In this document: positions 7,828 to 20,307 of the stretch, one piece after another
Layout of the letters: every line of letters begins with the position of its first letter
How positions within the stretch are numbered: the stretch's first letter is position 1
Assembly (NCBI GenBank): GCA_009777635.1
Contig: WRLK01000007.1
Coordinates: 1-64,000, forward strand
Direction: 5' to 3'
DNA from: Oscillospiraceae bacterium
Lineage (GTDB): Bacteria > Bacillota > Clostridia > Oscillospirales > Ruminococcaceae
Length of the DNA stretch: 64,000 nt
Translations under genes and position numbers: made by a program
The notes under the pieces: model-generated
Seen by the model: the letters and a program-made list of their open reading frames with translations, nothing else
Told to the model about the DNA's origin: nothing
The model's database searches: none

Positions 7828-9348
7828 ATGGGCGAAAAAATCATATCGATGAAAGGCATCTGCAAGAGCTTTCCCGGCGTGAAAGCCTTGGATGGTGTGG
7901 ATTTTGAGCTCAATTCAGGGGAAGTCATGGCCTTGCTTGGCGAGAACGGCGCGGGGAAATCCTCCCTTATGAAAGTATTAAGCGGCGTTTACGCTCGTGA
8001 TTTCGGCGAGATGGAGGTTTTAGGCAGGCGTTACGGGAACCTGACGCCGAAACAAGCGCAGGAGATCGGTATCGCGATAATCCATCAGGAGCTTAATATG
8101 TGCAGGCATTTATCTGTCGCGGAGAATATTTTCCTAGGCCGCGAGAAAACGAATAGGGGCGTGTTGTCAAACGCGGAGATGGAAGCCGAATCAAAAAAAA
8201 TACTCGATGATTTAAAAATAGACATTGACCCCGGCCATGTCGTCGGGGACCTGACTATATCAAAGCAGCAGATGGTCGAGATAGCAAAGGCGTTGTCGAC
8301 AAACGCGAAAATCCTGATTATGGATGAGCCGACCTCGTCGCTGACCGCAAAAGAAATTGAGGATTTGTTCCGCATTATACGCGACCTAAAATCAAACGGC
8401 TGCGGCATCGTGTACATATCCCACAGGCTGGAGGAGCTTTCGCATATCGCGGACCGCGTGATGATCATGCGCGACGGGCAGTATATCACAACAATGAATT
8501 TCGCCGATACAAATATCAACGAGATCATTACGCATATGGTCGGCCGCGAAATCAAGGAAAAATTCCCGCGATTATCCTGTGAAAAAGGAAAAGAAGTGCT
8601 AAGGGTCGAGAACCTAAACGCCGGGCGCATGGTCCGCAACGTAAGCTTTTCCCTGTACGAGGGCGAGGTAGTCGGGCTCGCCGGACTAATGGGCGCCGGA
8701 AGAACAGAGGCCACGCGGGCTATTTTCGGCGTCGACGCAAAGGATGGCGGCGATATCTTTCTCGAAGGCAAGCCGTGTAAAATAAGCCATCCCGAAGACG
8801 CGATCAGGGCAGGCATCGTGTTGGCTCCTGAAGACAGGAAGAAAGACGGGCTTTGCACAAAACTTAGCATCCGCCATAACCTGACGCTGCCGAATCTCGA
8901 TCTTGTTTGCGGCAAGCTCGGCGTTTTAAGCCGCCGCAAAGAGGAGGAGCTCTGCGAGCGCGCTGTCAAAAGCCTCGACATCAAAACGCCCAATGTGGAG
9001 ATAGACTCGGGCAACCTTTCAGGCGGCAACCAGCAGAAGGTCGTCGTCGGAAAGTGGCTGGCCCGCAATTCCAAGGTTGTAATTTTCGACGAGCCCACAA
9101 GGGGAATCGATGTCGCCGCAAAGGTTGAGATATACAATATCATCAACGAATTAAAGCGCAAAGGCATCGCCGTTATGATCGTTTCTTCAGAAATGCCCGA
9201 GGTAATGGGAATCGCCGACCGCATCATCGTCATGTGCGACGGAAGCATAACCGGGGAGGTCATGGCCGGTGAAACCACGCAAAACGAGATAATGACGCTC
9301 GCCACACGATTTGAAAACAAGATGAGCGAAGCCGGTAATATTACATAA
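7828..9348 (+). CDS. Sugar ABC transporter ATP-binding protein (RbsA/MglA/XylG family, two ATPase halves)
   Basis: Walker A GENGAGKSS, LIMDEPTSSLT, second half GLMGAGRTE, LSGGNQQKVVVGKWLA, VIFDEPTRGIDVAAK. ATG 7828 has a G-rich RBS; track ORF start 7750 is probably too far upstream. Confidence 0.95.
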   Translation: MGEKIISMKGICKSFPGVKALDGVDFELNSGEVMALLGENGAGKSSLMKVLSGVYARDFGEMEVLGRRYGNLTPKQAQEIGIAIIHQELNMCRHLSVAENIFLGREKTNRGVLSNAEMEAESKKILDDLKIDIDPGHVVGDLTISKQQMVEIAKALSTNAKILIMDEPTSSLTAKEIEDLFRIIRDLKSNGCGIVYISHRLEELSHIADRVMIMRDGQYITTMNFADTNINEIITHMVGREIKEKFPRLSCEKGKEVLRVENLNAGRMVRNVSFSLYEGEVVGLAGLMGAGRTEATRAIFGVDAKDGGDIFLEGKPCKISHPEDAIRAGIVLAPEDRKKDGLCTKLSIRHNLTLPNLDLVCGKLGVLSRRKEEELCERAVKSLDIKTPNVEIDSGNLSGGNQQKVVVGKWLARNSKVVIFDEPTRGIDVAAKVEIYNIINELKRKGIAVMIVSSEMPEVMGIADRIIVMCDGSITGEVMAGETTQNEIMTLATRFENKMSEAGNIT

Positions 9349-9363: not shown

Positions 9364-10395
9364 ATGGAGAAAAAATCGTTCTTAAGGCGGATTCTTGGTA
9401 TCCGGGGGATGAGGCCGGCCCTGACCGCGTTTGCCGGACTTATCATTATTTACGTTGCGTTCGGCTTGATAAACCCTATGGTGTTTTCCCCGATTAACCT
9501 CATGAACCTGCTGCGGTCCATGTCGAAGTATCTCTTAATCGGCATCGGGCAAAGCTTTGTCCTGATCACGGCAAACATTGACTTGTCCATCGGCTCGGTG
9601 GTCGGTATGAGCGCCATGATATCCGCCACGCTCATGACAAAAGGCGTGCCGGTTTTCGCGGCATGCCTGACCGCAATGGTGTGCTGTCTTGTGATTGGCG
9701 TAATAAACGGCATTTTGGTCGGCAAGTTTAAGCTTCCGCCCTTTATCGCCACGCTGGGTACCATGTTTGTCGCAAGGGGCGTCGCCTATATGGTAAACGG
9801 CAACCGCAATACCGACACCATTGCGTCCGGCGTGGGCAAGCAGGCGGGTGACGCCTTTCAAAGCGTCCTTTACTACGGTACAACATTGGGCGTCTTCAAT
9901 ACCTTTCTGATTTCACTTTTAATATTCATAATGTTCTTCTTTTTCCTTTCCAAAACAAAGAGCGGACGCCACATTTACGCCATCGGCTCGAATGTGGAGG
10001 CCGCAAAGCTTTCCGGCGTCAACGTGGAGCTCACGGTTACCAAGGCTTATCTCATCAGTGCGTTTTGCGCGGGTGCGACAGGGCTGATCCTGTGCGCGCA
10101 GGCCGGTATGGGCAATATGGAAGCCGGTATCATGTACGAAATGTACGGGGTTGCCGCGGGCGTCATAGGCGGCGTATCGCCAATGGGCGGGACTGGTATA
10201 TTGCTGGGTACTTTGGCTGGCGCAGCCGTATGGCAGACGCTTGAGAACGGGCTCAGTATGATCGGCGCGCAGGTGGGAATACAGCGCGTCGTGATTGGCG
10301 TTATCGTCGCAATGGCCGTTCTTTTGGACGTTATTTTCCGCAACAGGAAAAAAACATTTAAAAAGAGCGGCGTTTCGTCTGCTTCCAAGGGTTAG
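9364..10395 (+). CDS. Sugar ABC transporter permease (RbsC family)
   Basis: 343 aa polytopic protein; GQSFVLITANIDLSIGSVVGMSAM, GSNVEAAKLSGVNV. Confidence 0.94.
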   Translation: MEKKSFLRRILGIRGMRPALTAFAGLIIIYVAFGLINPMVFSPINLMNLLRSMSKYLLIGIGQSFVLITANIDLSIGSVVGMSAMISATLMTKGVPVFAACLTAMVCCLVIGVINGILVGKFKLPPFIATLGTMFVARGVAYMVNGNRNTDTIASGVGKQAGDAFQSVLYYGTTLGVFNTFLISLLIFIMFFFFLSKTKSGRHIYAIGSNVEAAKLSGVNVELTVTKAYLISAFCAGATGLILCAQAGMGNMEAGIMYEMYGVAAGVIGGVSPMGGTGILLGTLAGAAVWQTLENGLSMIGAQVGIQRVVIGVIVAMAVLLDVIFRNRKKTFKKSGVSSASKG

Positions 10396-10460
10396 ATACT
10401 CCGCGGGGACGCCCGCTGTCATATTATGAAAAATCAAAATCATTGAGGAGGAAAATTGAA

Positions 10461-11387
10461 TTGAAAAAGAGTTGTTTAGCATACCTGATTATTGCATGCA
10501 TGATTTTGGCTGTGTTCGCCGGTTGCGGCGGCGGCCAGACATCCGCGGAAGGTACGGCCTCCGGCGGGGACTACAAAATCTCGGTCATCACCATGGACCA
10601 AGTAGACCAGCATTGGGTAGCGCTATATGAAGGCGCCGAGCAGGCGGCAAACGAATTGGGCGTTTCCGTCACTTTCATGTCCCCGATGCAAAAGGACGAC
10701 GCGCAGCAGATCGAGCAGGTGAATAACGCAATTGCGGGTGGGTTCGACGCTCTTTTAGTGGCCGCAAACGGCCCGGACGCCATCACGGGCGCTTTGAATG
10801 AAGCGCTGGCTGCCGGATTGAAGCTCATCTATGTCGATTCCCCCGCAAACGTTGCGGCTGAGGCGACGTTCTCCACCGACAACAAGGCCGCCGGCAAAAC
10901 CGCCGGCGAAGAAATGCTAGGGGCCCTAGATACAGCCGGAATAACCTCCGGCAAGATAGGCATAGTCAACGTAAATCCCTCGGTCGATTCATGCGTGAAC
11001 CGTGAGCTGGGTTTCCGCGAAGCGTTTGAGGGTTCGGGCTTTGAGATTCTTGAGACACAGTACGGCGACGGCGACGCCGCGAAATCCCAGACCATCGCCG
11101 AAAACTACATCACCCAGGGCGTAGTCGGCATCTTCGGCGCGAACGAGGGCTCCACCGTCGGAACAGGCAACGCCATCAAGGCGGCGGGCGGCGGCGTGAT
11201 TGGAGTTGGCTTCGACCAGTCCGACGCGATAATGAACCTGCTTTCGGACGGCTGGCTTCTGTGCGCTATGGCGCAAAACCCCGACAAGATGGGCTATGAG
11301 GGCGTAAAGGCGGCTGTTGAGATCCTAAACGGCGCAAACCTGGGCGGAAAAGTCGTCGATACCGGAGTTTCGGTGTTGAGGGGCTAA
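10461..11387 (+). CDS. Sugar ABC transporter substrate-binding lipoprotein (RbsB-like)
   Basis: Lipobox CMILAVFAGCGG; periplasmic-binding-protein type 1 features (YKISVITMDQVDQHWVALYEGAEQAANELGVSV). TTG 10461 after gaggagg RBS preferred over 10443. Confidence 0.92.
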   Translation: MKKSCLAYLIIACMILAVFAGCGGGQTSAEGTASGGDYKISVITMDQVDQHWVALYEGAEQAANELGVSVTFMSPMQKDDAQQIEQVNNAIAGGFDALLVAANGPDAITGALNEALAAGLKLIYVDSPANVAAEATFSTDNKAAGKTAGEEMLGALDTAGITSGKIGIVNVNPSVDSCVNRELGFREAFEGSGFEILETQYGDGDAAKSQTIAENYITQGVVGIFGANEGSTVGTGNAIKAAGGGVIGVGFDQSDAIMNLLSDGWLLCAMAQNPDKMGYEGVKAAVEILNGANLGGKVVDTGVSVLRG

Positions 11388-11403: not shown

Positions 11404-11441
11404 AAAGAGCGTCGGCCATGTATAAGTCCGGCGCTCTTTTT
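11404..11441 (+). terminator. Rho-independent terminator after rbsB-like gene
   Basis: aaagagcgtcggccatgtataagtccggcgctcttttt. Confidence 0.85.
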
Positions 11442-11531
11442 CATTGAGGCGTAGCCGGTTATTTGTTTACATGACAGTGCCGGATATGGTACACTGAACA
11501 CAATACAATACGCTTGGAGGGTATCGGAAAG

Positions 11532-13121
11532 TTGCTGCTTAAAGTCGTGATTGCCGATGATGAGGCACGAGTGTGCAATCTAGTGAAGATGCTGGCCGAT
11601 TGGGACGCGCTGGGTATGGAGGTTGTCGGAACGGCATCCAACGGCTTTGAGGCGCTGAAATTTGTCGAGCAGATAAAACCGGATATACTCATCACCGATA
11701 TCCGTATGCCGGGCTGCGACGGGCTGGAGCTGATACGTCAGGCGAAGCTGCTGGTGCCTAATCTTGAAATCGCCATCATCAGCGGATACGCGCAGTTTGA
11801 ATATGCGCAAACCGCTGTGAGTTATAACGCGGGGGCTTATCTTCTAAAGCCGATAAAGAAAGACGTGCTCATCGCAACGCTTGAAAAATTGGGCGGCAAA
11901 TGCCGGGAGCGTGCGGCTTCTAAAAGCGCTTTGGAACATCTCCGCCAAAACAGCGATACGAACCGGGAGCTGCTGCGCAGCAGGCTGCCGGAGGATTTAC
12001 TTAACGGTCGCCTTCAAGCTCCGACGCGCGAGCTGCTGCGACGCGACTACGGCTTTAAGCTTCACGACGGTTTATTTCAGGTATTCATTTTAAAAATGGA
12101 TTATGACCGCGAAACGTTCAGCGCATCCTCCATCGCGGTCGCCCGTGCGAAAGCGGAGGAATTCATCGACTCGATGCTGTTTTCCCTGTGCATCTCCGGC
12201 GTATTCCAGTTTTACAAATCGGCCGGATATGGCGTGATTCATTATGCTTCTACAGATTCCGATCCGGTAAGGCGCGCTTTGCGCCAATGCTTAAACCAGC
12301 TGGAGACGCAAAAATTCATCTTCGGGCCCGTCGAGTTTTCGTTATCTGTCGGAAAAGCGGTGAAATCCCCCGAGGATCTGCCGCTTTCAATGCGCGAAGC
12401 GCAAAACGCCGTAACGGAACGAATCGTCGAGGGGACCGGCCGGTTGCTGGAATCCGCGCCTAGGCGATCCCTGCTCAATGAGGGCAAGTTGCTCGACCAA
12501 TATAACCGGGCGCTTAACCATGTCGCGGATACCCTTGACGCTGAAGACGCCGACAAGGCGGCTGATGATCTGCAAAAAGAGGTCGGAGGCATACCCGGTC
12601 TGCATGGATATGAGCTGCTGGGTCTTGTTTTGGCGGCCGGTAAAATGTTTACAATCCGGTTTAATATAAAGGATGAGCCGGGCCTTACGCACGAATTTGA
12701 AAGCCGGTGCGAGCTGTGCGCCTCCGCAGACAAGCTGTTCGATTGCCTGCGCGTGTTCCAGCGGCAGTGGATCGGCGTTGTACGTGAGCGGCGGGAAAGC
12801 GAGAAAAGCCGCCCTATACGCATAGCAAAGCAGTATATCCACCAGCATTTCAACGAACCGATCACGCTTGAGGACGTCTCTGCCGCCACGGGCTTCAGCG
12901 TAAATTATTTCAGCGCTATGTTCAAAAAGGAAACCGGCGAGGGGTTTTCCAAATACTTGACGCATGTGCGGATGGAACGCGCCAAGGATTTGTTAAGGGA
13001 TACCAATTATTCCGTTGCGGAGATATGCCGCCGCGTAGGCTACAGCGACTTAAAGCATTTCACGGGGGCCTTTAAAAAGACGACCGGCTTAAATCCGGGG
13101 CAATACAGAAAACTATGCTAG
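11532..13121 (+). CDS. Response regulator with AraC-type HTH output (YesN-like)
   Basis: REC domain (KVVIADDEARVCNLVKML...DILITDIRMPGCDGLELI...AGAYLLKPIKK) and C-terminal AraC HTH (ITLEDVSAATGFSVNYFSAMFKKETGEGFSKYLTHVRMERAKDLL). TTG 11532 preferred (ggagg RBS). Confidence 0.94.
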   Translation: MLLKVVIADDEARVCNLVKMLADWDALGMEVVGTASNGFEALKFVEQIKPDILITDIRMPGCDGLELIRQAKLLVPNLEIAIISGYAQFEYAQTAVSYNAGAYLLKPIKKDVLIATLEKLGGKCRERAASKSALEHLRQNSDTNRELLRSRLPEDLLNGRLQAPTRELLRRDYGFKLHDGLFQVFILKMDYDRETFSASSIAVARAKAEEFIDSMLFSLCISGVFQFYKSAGYGVIHYASTDSDPVRRALRQCLNQLETQKFIFGPVEFSLSVGKAVKSPEDLPLSMREAQNAVTERIVEGTGRLLESAPRRSLLNEGKLLDQYNRALNHVADTLDAEDADKAADDLQKEVGGIPGLHGYELLGLVLAAGKMFTIRFNIKDEPGLTHEFESRCELCASADKLFDCLRVFQRQWIGVVRERRESEKSRPIRIAKQYIHQHFNEPITLEDVSAATGFSVNYFSAMFKKETGEGFSKYLTHVRMERAKDLLRDTNYSVAEICRRVGYSDLKHFTGAFKKTTGLNPGQYRKLC

Positions 13122-13162: not shown

Positions 13163-14176
13163 ATGAAACAGCGGTGGAAATACATATCGTTTCGTGTTGC
13201 CGTGCTGTTTTGCGGTATTGGCGCGCTCATGGTTTCGGGCGCGCTTTCGCTCATACCGCCGCCCGCCGTTCTGGCGGGCTTTGCCGCGATTGCCGCCGCC
13301 GGATGGCTTTTAGTCGTGCGCCCCTATCTTAAGACCAGCGAAATGATCCGCTTGTTTTTGGAAGGGTATACCTTGTCGGAATCGCAAGTATCCGAAAGCC
13401 GCCCGATATCGGGCGTGACGCAGATGCTGTTTGACCAGTTCCAGGAGTTTTTAAGCCCTGCTCAGCTATTTAATATGAACAAGCGGCAGGCGCAGTATTT
13501 AGCGCTTCAAAACCAGATAAACCCGCATTTTCTCTACAACACTCTGGAGGGTATACGCAGCGAGGCGCTCATCGCAGGCTTAAACGATGTGGCCGATATG
13601 ACCGAAGCGCTGGCCACGTTTTTCAGGTATACGATCACAAAGGTGGAAAATCTTGTGTCCGTGGAGGAGGAGCTTCAAAACTGCGAGACTTATTTCAGCA
13701 TGCAGCAATACCGCTTCGGGGACCGCCTGGAGCTTTCGATACGCTGCGAGCCTAAGGACAAGGAAGAAATTTACCGCTGCCGGATACCAAAGCTTACGAT
13801 GCAGCCGATTTTAGAAAACAGCATCATCCACGGCACGGAGCTGAAAGTCGGGACAGGGCATATGGCAATCCATTTGGAGCTGACGGAAAAACGGCTTTTG
13901 ATCCGGGTGTCAGACGACGGCCTCGGCATGGACGAGGAGACGCTGATGCGGCTCAACGAGAAGCTTGGCAAAGGCAATTTCAGCATCGCGAAGCAGGAGC
14001 GGGAAGCAAAGGGCGGCCTCGCCCTTGCCAATGTCGACAACAGAATACGGCTGCTGTTTGGCGATGAATACGGTCTTCATGTCTTTTCGGCGCCGGGCGT
14101 CGGCACAGACGTGGAAATCTCCCTGCCCGCCATCGGCAGCGACAGAGAGGTCAAAAACAGAGAGGTATTGCAATGA
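13163..14176 (+). CDS. Sensor histidine kinase (YesM/LytS type, His_kinase + HATPase_c), two TM helices without extracellular domain
   Basis: LALQNQINPHFLYNTLEGIRSEAL H-box, MQPILENSIIHG N-box, VSDDGLGMDEE; TM1 and TM2 separated only by a few residues (SLIPPP). Confidence 0.93.
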   Translation: MKQRWKYISFRVAVLFCGIGALMVSGALSLIPPPAVLAGFAAIAAAGWLLVVRPYLKTSEMIRLFLEGYTLSESQVSESRPISGVTQMLFDQFQEFLSPAQLFNMNKRQAQYLALQNQINPHFLYNTLEGIRSEALIAGLNDVADMTEALATFFRYTITKVENLVSVEEELQNCETYFSMQQYRFGDRLELSIRCEPKDKEEIYRCRIPKLTMQPILENSIIHGTELKVGTGHMAIHLELTEKRLLIRVSDDGLGMDEETLMRLNEKLGKGNFSIAKQEREAKGGLALANVDNRIRLLFGDEYGLHVFSAPGVGTDVEISLPAIGSDREVKNREVLQ

Positions 14177-15612
14177 GGCAAGAGGTACTCCGAATGGAGC
14201 GCGTGAGCTGCGTAGAGCAAGGCGCCGTCCAGCTTGACGGCTTTAACTTAAGCATCCTCACAGGGGAGATTATGGGGCTGCTGCCCGTCAACAACCACGG
14301 GCTCTCGGCGCTTATAAAGATTCTCCAGAGCAATATGCCGCTGAGCCGCGGATATGTGTATTACCGGGAAAAGCAGGTAAACACATGGCGGCATTCAAAA
14401 CCGCGGGACAACCGCATCGGCTTAATCCAGAGCGAGGAATGCCTTGTTGAGGGGCTGACGGTAGCCGACAACATCTTTGTGCTTCATCCGCAGTACAAAA
14501 AATGGATGGTCAACCCGCCCAATATGAGAAAACAGCTCTCGCCGTTTTTAGAAAGCATCAACGTCTTTATTTCGGCGGATACATATGTTGACGAGCTTAG
14601 CGTATTTGAAAAAATCGTCGTCGACGTGCTGAAATCGGTCGTGGCCGGATGCAGGCTGATCGTGTTGCAGGACATCAGCGCAAAGGTCGGGGAGGCTGAG
14701 CTTAAAAAGCTTCATGAGCTGCTTAGGTATTACGCGAAACAGGGAATCACCTTTATATATATCGATTTTCATCTAAAGGAATTATGGCGAATCTGCGACA
14801 AGGTAGCGCTTATGTCAAATGGCAGGATTCTTAAAGTTTTACACAGTGAATCCGAGTCTCCTAATTTCGGGTATACGGGCAGCTACAACGGCAGCCGGGG
14901 TCCAAGTCCCGTTGTTCCTGCTAAAGGCGGGCGAGGCTTCGCGTTTGAGGCAAAGAAGCTTTCAGGAGAATTCATAAAGGATCTAAGCTTCACCGCCGCC
15001 GCCGGGGAGTGTGTGACGCTTCAGCATATGGATATTATGGCTTTCAGGGAGTTTTTATCGTTTCTGATCGGAGAAAGCGTTCCCCAAAGCGGCGAGATAC
15101 GGATTGACGGCAAAAAGACCGATTGCCTGTTTGGCGGCGGGTTTGCGGTGATACAGGAGCTTCCCACTGAAACGATGCTGTTTTACGAGATGAGCTATCT
15201 TGATAATCTTTGTTTTCTTCTGGACCGCCGCCTGCCGGAAATCTGGAGGAGCGCAGCCGCGCGCGAGGGAGTGAGGCGCGAGTATTCCCGGATATTGGGC
15301 GGCGACGTATTTAACAAGCGCGTAGACGCGCTAAGTAAGATTGAGAAATATGAGCTGGTATACACGCGCGTTGCAATCCAAAAGCCAAAGGTGGCGTTTT
15401 GCGTCCAGCCGTTCCGCCGCGCGGACATGGAGCTTCGCACACGCATTTTGGAGCTCATAAAAATGCTTCTGGATAAGGAAATCACGGTGGTTTTGCTTGC
15501 AGCAAACCTGGCCGACAGCCTGTCGATTTCCGATAAACTGATCCGGATACGCAAAGACGGCCCTGACGAGGTTTATTTGCGCGACGAATTCTTAGCGGTT
15601 GAGTCAAGCTAG
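14173..15612 (+). CDS. Degenerate RbsA/MglA-like ABC ATPase (predicted pseudo-ATPase)
   Basis: 479 aa, collinear with RbsA-type proteins, but Walker A replaced in both halves (LLPVNNHGLSALIK; LQHMDIMAFREF), Walker B/DEPT replaced (VLQDISAK; CVQPFRRAD), H-loop degenerate (YIDFHLKEL). Start overlaps HK stop. Confidence 0.8.
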   Translation: MRQEVLRMERVSCVEQGAVQLDGFNLSILTGEIMGLLPVNNHGLSALIKILQSNMPLSRGYVYYREKQVNTWRHSKPRDNRIGLIQSEECLVEGLTVADNIFVLHPQYKKWMVNPPNMRKQLSPFLESINVFISADTYVDELSVFEKIVVDVLKSVVAGCRLIVLQDISAKVGEAELKKLHELLRYYAKQGITFIYIDFHLKELWRICDKVALMSNGRILKVLHSESESPNFGYTGSYNGSRGPSPVVPAKGGRGFAFEAKKLSGEFIKDLSFTAAAGECVTLQHMDIMAFREFLSFLIGESVPQSGEIRIDGKKTDCLFGGGFAVIQELPTETMLFYEMSYLDNLCFLLDRRLPEIWRSAAAREGVRREYSRILGGDVFNKRVDALSKIEKYELVYTRVAIQKPKVAFCVQPFRRADMELRTRILELIKMLLDKEITVVLLAANLADSLSISDKLIRIRKDGPDEVYLRDEFLAVESS

Positions 15613-15704: not shown

Positions 15705-16748
15705 TTATTCTAAATCAATCTTGCCGAACGAAATGCCGGTTGTAGCTTCTGCTTCCGGCGTCTGTTTCGGAGGACCTGACGTCGCGGGGGAAGCCTGCTG
15801 CCTTCCGCCGCGTCCGCGGTCGCGGTCGCCGCGGTCACGCCTGTCGGGCCTGTCGGATCTTGCGCCGCGCTCGGGGGGCCTGCCGCGCCCGGGCATGGAC
15901 GGGCGGACGCCGCCGCCCTGGCGGTATCCTCCGCCTCTTGTAGGCTTTGCCGTCGGGGAGGTGATAACAACACGGCGGTTAGGCTCCTCTCCCACGGACA
16001 AGGAGCTCACCCCTTCAATTTCGTAAACCGTCGAATGTATAATCCTTCTCTCAAAGGGATTCATCGGTTCAAGCGTCTTACTGACGTTTGTTTTTAACAC
16101 CTGGCTTGCAAGCTTTCTGGCGAGGGCTTCTAGCGTATCCTTGCGCTTCATGCGGTATTCGCCGCAGTCTATCGTGAACCTTACATAATCGCCGCCGCGG
16201 TTTGCGACAAGGCTTGTAAGGTACTGAAGCGCGTCAAGTGTTTCGCCGCGCCGCCCGATTATCATGCCAAGCCCCTCGCCCGTGATATTGATGCTGCTGC
16301 CGCCGTGCTCGCGTACGATCTTAAATTCCGCATCAAGGCCCGCTGACTTCAAAATATTTTGTAAGTATTCCTTTGCGATTTTTTCTTTTTCGGAAATTTT
16401 AGCTTCATCCACGACGACCGCCGGTTTTGTTTCCCTTATCTCTTTTTGTTTTTTAGGCTGTTCGCTTTTCGCACGTTTTTCGCGAAACGCCGGCTGAGGC
16501 GGCTTTTGCTTTACCTGTTTTTGCGGTTGCTCCGGTTCAGGTTTTTTTTGTTCCGGCTTCGGCTTTTCATCCGGCACCTCTATAGACACGCGCACCTTTG
16601 CCGGATTGTTTTTAAGCCCTAAAAATCCCTTTTTCGGCAGGTCAATAATTTCCCACTGGCAATCCTCGCGTTTGCATCCGAGCTTCTCGCATGCCGAGTC
16701 GATCGCCGCGTCAACGGTTTTTCCGGTTTCAAATATCTCTTTTTGCAT
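15705..16748 (-). CDS. jag: Jag/KhpB (SpoIIIJ-associated) RNA-binding protein with Arg/Gly-rich C-terminal tail
   Basis: Jag_N domain (FETGKTVDAAIDSACEKLGC), KH (GLGMIIGRRGETLDALQYLTSLVANR), R3H (MNPFERRIIHSTVYEIEGVSSLSVGEEPNRRVVI), then RGG/RD-rich tail. Confidence 0.94.
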   Translation of the reverse strand: MQKEIFETGKTVDAAIDSACEKLGCKREDCQWEIIDLPKKGFLGLKNNPAKVRVSIEVPDEKPKPEQKKPEPEQPQKQVKQKPPQPAFREKRAKSEQPKKQKEIRETKPAVVVDEAKISEKEKIAKEYLQNILKSAGLDAEFKIVREHGGSSINITGEGLGMIIGRRGETLDALQYLTSLVANRGGDYVRFTIDCGEYRMKRKDTLEALARKLASQVLKTNVSKTLEPMNPFERRIIHSTVYEIEGVSSLSVGEEPNRRVVITSPTAKPTRGGGYRQGGGVRPSMPGRGRPPERGARSDRPDRRDRGDRDRGRGGRQQASPATSGPPKQTPEAEATTGISFGKIDLE

Positions 16749-16760
16749 CAGTAACCTCCA

Positions 16761-17855
16761 TCATCTAAGGTCTTCATCCGTGACTTCCACATACGTTTCG
16801 CCGTACCTTTCGGCGTCGCGCTTTCTTGCCTCCGCAAGCTTTCTCCTGTTTATTTCCTTTTGGCTCATCGACTTTTGCTCGGTTTCCTCGCCCTTTTCTT
16901 TCGCGCGCTTCTTCGCTTCAATGCGCTCAAGCCGTTCCTGCTCCTGGCGCTCGGCATGCTCCGCCCGTGCTTTTTCGGCCATTTCTTTCGGGTTATAATA
17001 TTTATTTAGTATAAGCGACTGAGCCATCGCAAACAGGTTCGAGTAGCACCAGTAAAGACCGACGCCCGCCGGAACCTGAAACGCGATAAACAAAGAAAAT
17101 ATCGGCATGGTGTACATCATGCCTTTCATGCTCGCGTTAGCCCCGGTGTTTTCCGTCGAGGGCATGACCCTCATGGAAATAACGGAAACAAGCAGCGCCG
17201 ATATGCCCGATATGATAGGGATGAGAAGGACCGGGTTCCAGATACCTGAAAGGATGTCCCCGAACATACCGAGCTGCGGTATTTCGCCTAAGTTCATGCC
17301 GAAGAAATCGAGTTTGAAATCACTTATCTGACGCACGATACCGGCGCCTGCCGCATTGTACGCGGCGTTTCCGGCCTGTACGTCCTGAATGACTGTAATC
17401 TGCGCGGAATTAAGCCCGCCTAAGTTGCGGATTTTATCCGGGTGCAAGCTTTGGGCGATCGTTTCAAGGTTTATGATAATATCAGCGGGTAAATGTAAAA
17501 TATGCTTTAACGGGCGGTAAATAACCTCAATGAGCCCGAAAAGAATCGGCATCTGTATCAAAAGCGGCAAACAGCCCGACGCCGGATTGTAGCCCTCTTT
17601 CTGGTAGAGCTTCATCATTTCTTCGTTTAACTTTTCGCGGTTATTTTTGTATTTTGCCTGAAGCTCGTCCATTTGCGGCTTTAAAAGCTGCATTTTTATC
17701 GTGGACTTTTGCTGCTTTAAAGACAGCGGGAATAATATCGCCCTGATAATAAGCGTAAAGACAAATAACGCAAGGCCGTAGTTGTTTACAATCTGATAAC
17801 AGGCCCACATGACATATCCCAGCGGTAAACCGAGAATCCGATAGACAGCGTCCAA
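16761..17855 (-). CDS. yidC: YidC/Oxa1 family membrane protein insertase
   Basis: LALFVFTLIIRAILFPLSLKQQKSTIKMQLLKPQMDELQAKYKNNREKLNEEMMKLYQKEGYNPASGCLPLLIQMPILFGL. Confidence 0.96.
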   Translation of the reverse strand: MDAVYRILGLPLGYVMWACYQIVNNYGLALFVFTLIIRAILFPLSLKQQKSTIKMQLLKPQMDELQAKYKNNREKLNEEMMKLYQKEGYNPASGCLPLLIQMPILFGLIEVIYRPLKHILHLPADIIINLETIAQSLHPDKIRNLGGLNSAQITVIQDVQAGNAAYNAAGAGIVRQISDFKLDFFGMNLGEIPQLGMFGDILSGIWNPVLLIPIISGISALLVSVISMRVMPSTENTGANASMKGMMYTMPIFSLFIAFQVPAGVGLYWCYSNLFAMAQSLILNKYYNPKEMAEKARAEHAERQEQERLERIEAKKRAKEKGEETEQKSMSQKEINRRKLAEARKRDAERYGETYVEVTDEDLR

Positions 17856-17889
17856 AATTTTTCCCTCACAAACCTATGATTTTATGATT

Positions 17890-18117
17890 TTAGATATGAA
17901 GCATCTTCTGCGGCACCGGGTCGTATCCTCCCGGATGAAACGGATGGCATTTCAAAATACGTTTTAAAGCAAGAAAACCTCCCCGCAACGCGCCGTGCTC
18001 TGAAACAGCCGTCAAAGCATAGCTCGAACAGGTCGGGTAAAACCTACAGCTTGGCGGTTTTAACGGGGATATAAATCTCCTGTAAAGCCGTATAACCAAA
18101 AGCATCATAGTCTTCAT
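17890..18117 (-). CDS. yidD: Membrane protein insertion efficiency factor YidD
   Basis: [59 protein letters not shown]. Confidence 0.95.
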
Positions 18118-18435
18118 TTAAAATTTCACGTCTCTCAGCGCCGACATTATGTCCTGCGTTTTTGAAAGCCCTGCTTTTTTTCTTGCCGCAATAACGATGT
18201 CATATCCCACCGGCAATTCAGGCTCAAGCAGCCTGTAAGCTTCTTTTATTACTCTTCTGCACCGGTTTCTTTCGGGGGCCTTGCCTATTTTTTTTGTGGC
18301 CGTCAGTCCCAGCCTGTTGATTTTTAAACGGTTCTTTCTATAATACACGACAAAATACTGCGTTACTATATTGTTCCCACGCCTGTACAGGCTTTTAAAA
18401 ATCCGGTTTTTGTTTATAGAAACCGTGTTTTTCAT
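18118..18435 (-). CDS. rnpA: Ribonuclease P protein component
   Basis: MKNTVSINKNRIFKSLYRRGNNI...NRLGLTATKKIGKAPERNRCRRVIKEAYRL. ATG 18435 preferred over 18498. Confidence 0.94.
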   Translation of the reverse strand: MKNTVSINKNRIFKSLYRRGNNIVTQYFVVYYRKNRLKINRLGLTATKKIGKAPERNRCRRVIKEAYRLLEPELPVGYDIVIAARKKAGLSKTQDIMSALRDVKF

Positions 18436-18514
18436 AACAGATAGACGGCCTTTCCACCAGCCTGAAAAAAAAGCCACAACATAAAATTGCGGCCACATTT
18501 TTCAAAAGGCTCTT

Positions 18515-18649
18515 TTAATGCGTAAGCCTTGCCCTGCCTTTTGCCCTTCTTAAAGCAATTACTTTTCTTCCGTTTTTAGTCTTCATCCTTTTACGGAAGC
18601 CATGCTCACGCTTGCGCTGCAGCTTCTTAGGCTGATATGTCCTTTTCAT
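18515..18649 (-). CDS. rpmH: 50S ribosomal protein L34
   Basis: [44 protein letters not shown] read directly on minus strand (44 aa; not in ORF track). Confidence 0.97.
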
Positions 18650-18855
18650 CTTTTAAAACCTCCTTCGCCTAAAAAATAAAATTAGGCTTAAACGCCCTTA
18701 ATCCACATCTTTGCATTAAGCATTATATAGCATAGTATAACCCTGTGTCAAGTCTTTAATTTAAGATTGATTTTTAGATATACATCATATTGTGGGTTTT
18801 TAATTATATAACCACTAATGTATAGAAATAATCGCAATATTGACACTTTATTAAC

Positions 18856-18884
18856 TTGAAAAACCGTATCTTATATGTTAAAAT
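18856..18884 (+). promoter_or_regulatory. Candidate dnaA promoter
   Basis: ttgaaa-N17-taaaat. Confidence 0.65.
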
Positions 18885-18893
18885 TATGTAGTG

Positions 18894-18922
18894 TAAAAAA
18901 CCGCGTTTTACCGGTTTTTTTA
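18894..18922 (+). promoter_or_regulatory. Terminator-like hairpin in dnaA leader (possible attenuator)
   Basis: aaaaaaccgcgttttaccggttttttta: stem AAAAACCG/CGGTTTTT plus T-run, between promoter and dnaA. Confidence 0.5.
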
Positions 18923-18978
18923 TTTGACCTCTTTCTAAATACAGAGGTCCATTGTCTGTTGATAGGGGAAGTTATATT

Positions 18979-20307
18979 ATGGGGCAAGTTGAATCCTTTG
19001 ACCAGGTGTTTGAAAATGTACGGGAATATTGTAAATCACAGCTTTCCGACGTAAACTACACGCTTTGGATCGAAGACCTCACTCCTTTGAAGTTTGAGGG
19101 ATTAACCGCTTATTTAAAAGCAAAATCCAAATTTAAAAGGAATATCATCATCGAAAAATACAAAGACATACTGTTAGACGGGTTTTCAAATGTCTTGGGA
19201 TTTCAGGTTGATCTTGTAATAGAATACGACGAGGTCGGCAAAAAGCAAAGTGACTTTGAAAATGACACGTATGAAAATAATTTGATGAGCGGCCATTATG
19301 AATATACCTTTGATACTTTTATTGTGGGTCCGTCAAATAAATTCGCGCATGCGGCGTCGCTTGCCGTCGCAACAAACCCGGGCAACGCGTACAACCCGCT
19401 TTTCATTTACGGTGATTCCGGGCTTGGCAAAACACATCTGCTTTACGCGATCTCACATGATATTTCAAAAAATATACTAGGCAAAAATATTGTTTTCGTA
19501 AAGGGCGACCAGTTTTCAAACGAGCTGATAGACGCCATTAAAAGCGGCGCCACAAAACATTTCCACGATAAGTACCGCTCTGCCGACGTCCTTTTGGTAG
19601 ACGATATCCAGTTTATCGCCGGCAAGGAATCGACCCAGGAGGAATTTTTCCATACATTCAACACGCTTTTCCAGGATAAAAAGCAGATAATCCTTACGTC
19701 GGACAGACCGCCCAAGGAAATAAAAACACTGGAGGAAAGGCTTCGCACAAGGTTCGAGTGGGGGCTTTTGGCCGACATACAGGTGCCGGAATACGAAACG
19801 CGCTGCGCAATAATCAGACGGAAAGCCGAGCTTATAAGCTTAAAGCTGCCGACGGAGGTTGTTGAATATATCGCAAACCGCCTTAAAACAAATATCCGGC
19901 AGCTTGAGGGGACAGTCAAAAGAATAAAGGCTTTTTCAGATTTAAACAAAACGCCCCCGTCTATCATGACGGCGCAAAACGCGATACGCGATATTTTAAA
20001 TGACAACCAGCCAGTTCCGGTAACTGTAGAGCGGATCATAAACGAAGTCGCGCGAACATACGGGGTTTTGCCGGCCGACATCCGCTCATCGAAAAGAAGC
20101 TCCAATATTTCGGTGGCAAGGCAGGTTTCAGCCCACGCGATACGGGAAATAACGCAAATATCATACCACGAGATAGGGCTTGAGCTTGGCGGACGCGACC
20201 ATTCAACAATCGTATACCAGCTAAAGCAGGCCTGTAAAAATATAAAAAAAGATCCGCGGTATAAAGAAACCGTTGACGATATAATAAGAAATATTAGAGG
20301 CAGCTGA
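18979..20307 (+). CDS. dnaA: Chromosomal replication initiator protein DnaA
   Basis: FIYGDSGLGKTHLLYAISHD Walker A, VLLVDDIQFIAGK Walker B, C-terminal ELGGRDHSTI signature. ATG 18979 with aggggaa RBS preferred. Confidence 0.97.
   Translation: MGQVESFDQVFENVREYCKSQLSDVNYTLWIEDLTPLKFEGLTAYLKAKSKFKRNIIIEKYKDILLDGFSNVLGFQVDLVIEYDEVGKKQSDFENDTYENNLMSGHYEYTFDTFIVGPSNKFAHAASLAVATNPGNAYNPLFIYGDSGLGKTHLLYAISHDISKNILGKNIVFVKGDQFSNELIDAIKSGATKHFHDKYRSADVLLVDDIQFIAGKESTQEEFFHTFNTLFQDKKQIILTSDRPPKEIKTLEERLRTRFEWGLLADIQVPEYETRCAIIRRKAELISLKLPTEVVEYIANRLKTNIRQLEGTVKRIKAFSDLNKTPPSIMTAQNAIRDILNDNQPVPVTVERIINEVARTYGVLPADIRSSKRSSNISVARQVSAHAIREITQISYHEIGLELGGRDHSTIVYQLKQACKNIKKDPRYKETVDDIIRNIRGS

Follow-up and report, generated by a model that had tools for sequence, protein, structure and literature searches.

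A degenerate RbsA-like ATPase encoded with a sensor-less histidine kinase: a candidate accessory subunit between a sugar importer and a two-component system

Organization of the Locus

The locus occupies part of the window (the whole 64,000-nt stretch of Oscillospiraceae contig WRLK01000007.1 that was analysed) and consists of a sugar ABC transporter, a two-component system, and a second, degenerate RbsA-like ATPase, which we call pseudo-RbsA. Its genes and features are as follows:

7828..9348, + strand, intact RbsA-type ATPase of the partner transporter
9364..10395, + strand, RbsC-like permease of the partner transporter (BPD_transp_2)
10443..11387, + strand, RbsB-like substrate-binding lipoprotein of the partner transporter (Peripla_BP_4)
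11404..11439, + strand, terminator-like inverted repeat between rbsB and the response regulator gene (12-nt arms, 92% complementary, then TTTTT)
11466..11495, + strand, promoter-like site TTTACA-18-TACACT 5' of the response regulator gene (consensus match only)
11532..13121, + strand, AraC-type (YesN-like) response regulator (TTG start at 11532 behind GGAGGG; the start in the ORF list is 11514)
13163..14176, + strand, sensor-less YesM/LytS-type histidine kinase, 337 aa (TM hairpin, a linker that we read as HAMP-like, His_kinase and HATPase_c)
14173..15612, + strand, pseudo-RbsA, a tandem ABC ATPase that has lost both nucleotide sites, 479 aa

The coordinates and frames given in an earlier, sequence-only reading of this DNA hold, as does the 4-nt overlap of the kinase and pseudo-RbsA genes (ATGA at 14173-14176). 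The inverted repeat at 11404..11439 suggests that rbsA-rbsC-rbsB and the genes for the regulator, kinase, and pseudo-RbsA may be two transcription units. Promoter-like sites in the region of 11466..11495 are no commoner than in shuffled sequences. A shared operator of rbsA and the regulator gene was rejected, as a within-region scan found no repeat common to their two upstream regions. The cassette has a G+C content of 0.53 and the window one of 0.51, which provides no indication of a foreign island or recent transfer. Adjoining the cassette, at 15705-20307, is a chromosome-origin-like cluster containing jag-like, yidC-like, and rnpA-like genes and dnaA, according to our reading of the ORFs.

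Fold and Lost Motifs of Pseudo-RbsA

Pseudo-RbsA matches the Pfam ABC_tran model at 2.3e-11, and the NCBIfam RbsA model aligns to its residues 3-460, well under the model cut-off. Its best score against an NCBIfam CUT2 ATPase model is 123.6 bits versus a cut-off of 745, which alone discriminates poorly, as the intact partner RbsA also falls under it (580.5). It can be aligned nearly end to end with the intact RbsA at 7828-9348 (20% identity, E 7e-26), which bears out the collinearity claimed for the two proteins. The AlphaFold2 model (mean pLDDT 77.1, pTM 0.65) contains two NBD folds with a disordered linker, residues 227-254, between them, and its Foldseek matches in the PDB are other tandem ABC ATPases (DppD and OppD, TM about 0.7), matches that indicate no more than "tandem ABC ATPase." Pseudo-RbsA thus has the tandem ABC fold and the length of about 500 aa expected of a CUT2 ATPase. 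It resembles RbsA and MglA in fold, length, tandem NBDs, and collinear sequence, but differs from them in that the catalytic motifs are lost, so that neither site combines a functional Walker A, Walker B, signature, and H-loop, and in that an intact RbsA is always found alongside it or in the same genome.

The window protein has lost both Walker A motifs, both Walker B motifs, the second signature, and both H-loop positions, as the sequence-only reading had it; alignment of the paralogs and inspection of their catalytic residues confirmed this, and residues were also tabulated for 21 pseudo-RbsAs and 16 intact partner RbsAs. According to this table, no pseudo-RbsA has the Walker B Asp-Glu pair in either half, the H-loop His in the first half, or the GG of the second signature (0/21 for each), all of which are kept by the 16 intact proteins. 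The Lys of the first-half Walker A, likewise kept by the intact RbsAs, is present in 9 of the 21, so some members may bind ATP without hydrolysing it. The D-loop Asp of the second half is kept in 21/21. Two of the motifs were weak to start with, since they are already atypical in the intact partner RbsA: its first-NBD signature is non-canonical (LTISKQQM), and in its second Walker A an Arg replaces the Lys (GLMGAGRTE).

Family Membership and Origin

The first homologue, at locus L009 in an Oscillospiraceae MAG (45% identity), was found in a scan of species genomes, and profile searches of samples at the order, class, and phylum levels added more. Scores in the class sample separate the family (1e-113 or lower) well from ordinary RbsAs (1e-74 or higher). 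The core set comprises 18 loci: the window, L009, L013, L014, L046/L063, L047-L056, and L092-L094. Three more diverged degenerate RbsAs (L064, L095, and L096) adjoin the same kind of kinase, two of them in the order regulator, kinase, pseudo-RbsA, while the one in L096 is convergent to the kinase. These diverged copies (L064 3486-4892, L095 6663-8153, L096 5667-7154) have other adjacent transporters or none. Given these three loci, the pairing of a dead ATPase with the kinase may be older, or may have arisen repeatedly.

Searches of the genus (ten other species) and of fifty members of the family found no pseudo-RbsA, the single match in the genus (G008) being an ordinary RbsA. Because it is nevertheless present in distant families, loss or transfer of the cassette is common. 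In the tree, the core pseudo-RbsAs form one clade (0.98) and the partner RbsAs another (1.0), with broadly parallel branching. Such separate, parallel clades fit one old origin; L064 and L095 take no firm position in this tree. A recent local duplication of the neighbouring RbsA was rejected, since the core pseudo-RbsAs group together, outside the clade of partner RbsAs. We found no curated family in Pfam or NCBIfam that separates pseudo-RbsAs from RbsA, so they are likely misnamed as active sugar-transport ATPases.

Selection on Pseudo-RbsA

The pseudo-RbsA frame is open at 21 loci, which represent at least nine families, and is 467-501 aa long in the 18 core loci. Nei-Gojobori dN/dS for five pairs of pseudo-RbsAs is 0.06-0.17 (0.06 for G083/G151, 0.11-0.13 for the three pairs among G481, G509, and G536, and 0.17 for G486/G687), while that of the partner RbsA is 0.04-0.12. 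The pseudo-RbsA values are far from 1 and argue against decay, which was rejected on the basis of dN/dS and family conservation. Homologues at the same locus with intact Walker motifs were sought and none was found; nor were frameshifts seen in relatives. On the evidence of its sequence, pseudo-RbsA is catalytically dead yet under purifying selection. The open frames, dN/dS, and motif table together uphold the proposal that a conserved, selected pseudo-ATPase is encoded with a sensor-less kinase.

Pairing with a Sensor-less Kinase

The kinase belongs to the YesM/LytS type (Pfam His_kinase, PF06580) and retains an intact INPHFL His box, N box, and G box; a PF06580 kinase together with an AraC-type response regulator makes this a YesM/YesN (LytS-type) system. 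Its hydrophobic segments, at about residues 13-31 and 34-52, lie a few residues apart, in agreement with two close TM helices and no extracytoplasmic domain. The triad of AraC-type regulator, short kinase, and degenerate RbsA, the conservation of which the sequence-only reading had proposed to check, recurs in other genomes, usually in that order and in most loci next to RbsA-RbsC-RbsB.

Relatives of the kinase from 391 class and 349 phylum genomes include 21 sensor-less and 6 sensor-bearing proteins, gathered by similarity to the family, so these counts are not an independent sample. For 20 of the 21 sensor-less kinases, the genome also encodes a degenerate RbsA, which is adjacent in 19 cases (counting that of G468, which is cut off by a contig edge) and located elsewhere in one (G771). 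The sensor-less kinase of L088 has no pseudo-ATPase beside it; at 1453-2511 of that locus, the kinase gene is followed by one for an esterase-like lipoprotein. None of the 6 sensor-bearing relatives has an adjacent degenerate RbsA, and one of them (L087) borders an intact RbsA. Pseudo-RbsA and kinase distances are correlated (r 0.95, computed without a housekeeping-gene control), for which common descent may account.

Association with One Transporter Clade

The partner transporter clade, delimited by an RbsB search at E 1e-80 or better, is present in 13 of 341 class genomes, and 12 of the 13 also contain the kinase and pseudo-ATPase (Fisher p 3e-21, relatedness ignored). G805 and G468 are absent from this list of 13, by sampling or otherwise; in G805, the transporter adjoins the cassette (L053). 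In G712, rbsA-rbsC-rbsB occurs beside a ROK-type regulator gene, as we read its N-terminus, and searches of the genome gave no match to the kinase or pseudo-ATPase. This ROK-like gene (L109 1548-2750) lies upstream of the transporter, in the place of the two-component system. In G771 (L046 8115-9569 and L063), the pseudo-ATPase gene is found between ileS and M42 peptidases, apart from HK-RbsA-RbsC-RbsB, with the kinase and transporter still together. In G541, the triad and transporter are on separate contigs, and the gene upstream of the transporter does not belong to the triad.

The separations in G771 and G541 indicate that linkage is not what keeps pseudo-ATPase, kinase, and transporter together. 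Moreover, as G712 lacks both signalling components and G771 keeps a moved copy, the pseudo-ATPase follows the signalling unit rather than transport. The G712 transporter, encoded without a pseudo-ATPase, suggests that the latter may be dispensable for transport. Genes resembling those of inositol catabolism are located near the L048/L049 cassettes (L048 13736-18089), and a D-lyxose isomerase and a PfkB kinase near those of L009 (5609-7294) and L055 (4410-6270); these neighbours suggest possible substrates of the transporters.

Conserved Segments and Proposed Function

The segments that follow the two Q-loop positions are among the most conserved parts of the family:

14442..14490, + strand, segment after the first Q-loop position, pseudo-RbsA residues 90-106, 98th percentile of family conservation
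15169..15216, + strand, segment after the second Q-loop position, pseudo-RbsA residues 333-348 (includes MSYLDNLCF), 96th percentile

Mean pairwise identity peaks within them, at LTVADNIFVLR (residues 95-105) and MSYLDNLCF (340-348). The second Walker B/D-loop segment likewise scores high (97th percentile), with a new conserved sequence, QPFxxADMxLR (in full, CxQPFxxADMxLR), and the two Walker A positions are at the 31st and 20th percentiles. In ABC importers, the post-Q-loop segments line the groove that takes the coupling helix of the permease. Their conservation favours docking on the RbsC-like permease, although they could serve a partner other than RbsC.

We propose that pseudo-RbsA is a dead copy of RbsA that has become an accessory subunit of the two-component system and relays the state of the transporter to the sensor-less kinase, a reading to which we assign a probability of roughly 0.6. 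Because it keeps the permease-facing side in addition to the RbsA fold, pseudo-RbsA would probably sit on the RbsC-like permease, either replacing RbsA or beside it, and it would also contact the membrane-proximal region of the kinase. Via pseudo-RbsA, kinase activity would then depend on whether the transporter is substrate-loaded or idle, busy or empty, and the AraC-type regulator would set transporter expression. We infer the docking on permease and kinase, the signal with its sign and direction, and the target promoters. That these loci define a two-component family whose input is a dead tandem ABC ATPase, occupying or touching the ATPase site of the permease and passing its conformation to the kinase, seems to us slightly better than an even bet.

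The conserved permease-facing segments would also suit a feedback inhibitor that, whenever the two-component system is active, competes for the permease with RbsA and thereby throttles transport. Its gene lies among regulatory genes, so its level would track that system, and BceS is known to throttle the ATPase of its transporter (PMC10314905). We consider such a role unlikely, as it leaves unexplained why a pseudo-RbsA accompanies the sensor-less kinases but not the sensor-bearing ones related to them. Slightly less probable still is a cytoplasmic receptor whose dead pocket binds another ligand, such as a sugar phosphate, and informs the kinase without contacting the transporter. The kinase needs some input, and the lost catalytic residues are replaced by conserved, family-specific ones, as in CxQPFxxADMxLR and the invariant D-loop Asp; however, the low conservation of the Walker A positions is unlike that of a pocket under selection, and the unit is bound up with a single clade of transporters. 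Retention of fold and length, and of the Walker A Lys in some members, might be taken to mean that pseudo-RbsA is an active second ATPase with motifs diverged past recognition, but this is very improbable given that every member lacks the H-loop His, the GG of the second signature, and, in both halves, the Asp-Glu pair of Walker B. Finally, the loss of every catalytic motif would be expected of an ordinary pseudogene open by chance, an explanation that we regard as next to untenable, as the same losses occur in full-length frames under low dN/dS in about 20 genomes.

Comparison with Known Systems

The proposed accessory subunit can be compared with several characterized systems. BceS, a kinase with two TM helices that lacks a sensing domain, reads the state of BceAB (PMC10314905). 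The present locus resembles BceAB-BceRS in having a short TM-hairpin kinase that lacks a sensor domain and is encoded with an ABC transporter. In the Bce system, however, the kinase is contacted by the working transporter itself, which acts on antimicrobial peptides, whereas the present unit pairs a YesM/LytS kinase with a CUT2 sugar importer and includes a dead ATPase as an additional part; instead of a BceB-type permease with a large extracellular domain and BceA, the locus encodes a BPD_transp_2 permease and an RbsB-like protein. The label "BceS-type" that the kinase had been given therefore survives as an analogy only, the kinase being of the YesM/LytS type (PF06580) and the transporter a CUT2 sugar importer.

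The kinase of PstSCAB-PhoU-PhoR likewise has no canonical periplasmic sensor domain and receives its signal from an importer, with PhoU, an accessory protein not needed for transport, linking PstB and PhoR (PMC6978683); here a corresponding relay is predicted. PhoU is no homologue of ABC ATPases, whereas the accessory protein proposed here comes from the transporter's own ATPase family. In Ruminiclostridium cellulolyticum, the duplicated solute-binding protein CuaD is an accessory sensor of CuaS-CuaR, which controls the transporter (PMC10384115). As proposed for pseudo-RbsA, a duplicated transporter subunit there serves a two-component system, but CuaD is extracellular and binds a kinase with an extracellular domain, while pseudo-RbsA is a cytoplasmic ATPase homologue and its kinase has no such domain.

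Significance

Our searches of the open-access literature turned up no degenerate RbsA described as part of a two-component system. Kinases that read out transporters are known, mostly from antimicrobial-peptide modules and phosphate uptake. The long retention of pseudo-RbsA in scattered bacteria, nearly always with a sensor-less kinase, suggests that a dead motor informs the kinase about the importer. If this is correct, a kinase can lose its own sensor and borrow one from a transporter through duplication of the motor subunit, and these loci would provide a testable system in which loss of one gene would uncouple substrate from induction while leaving transport intact.
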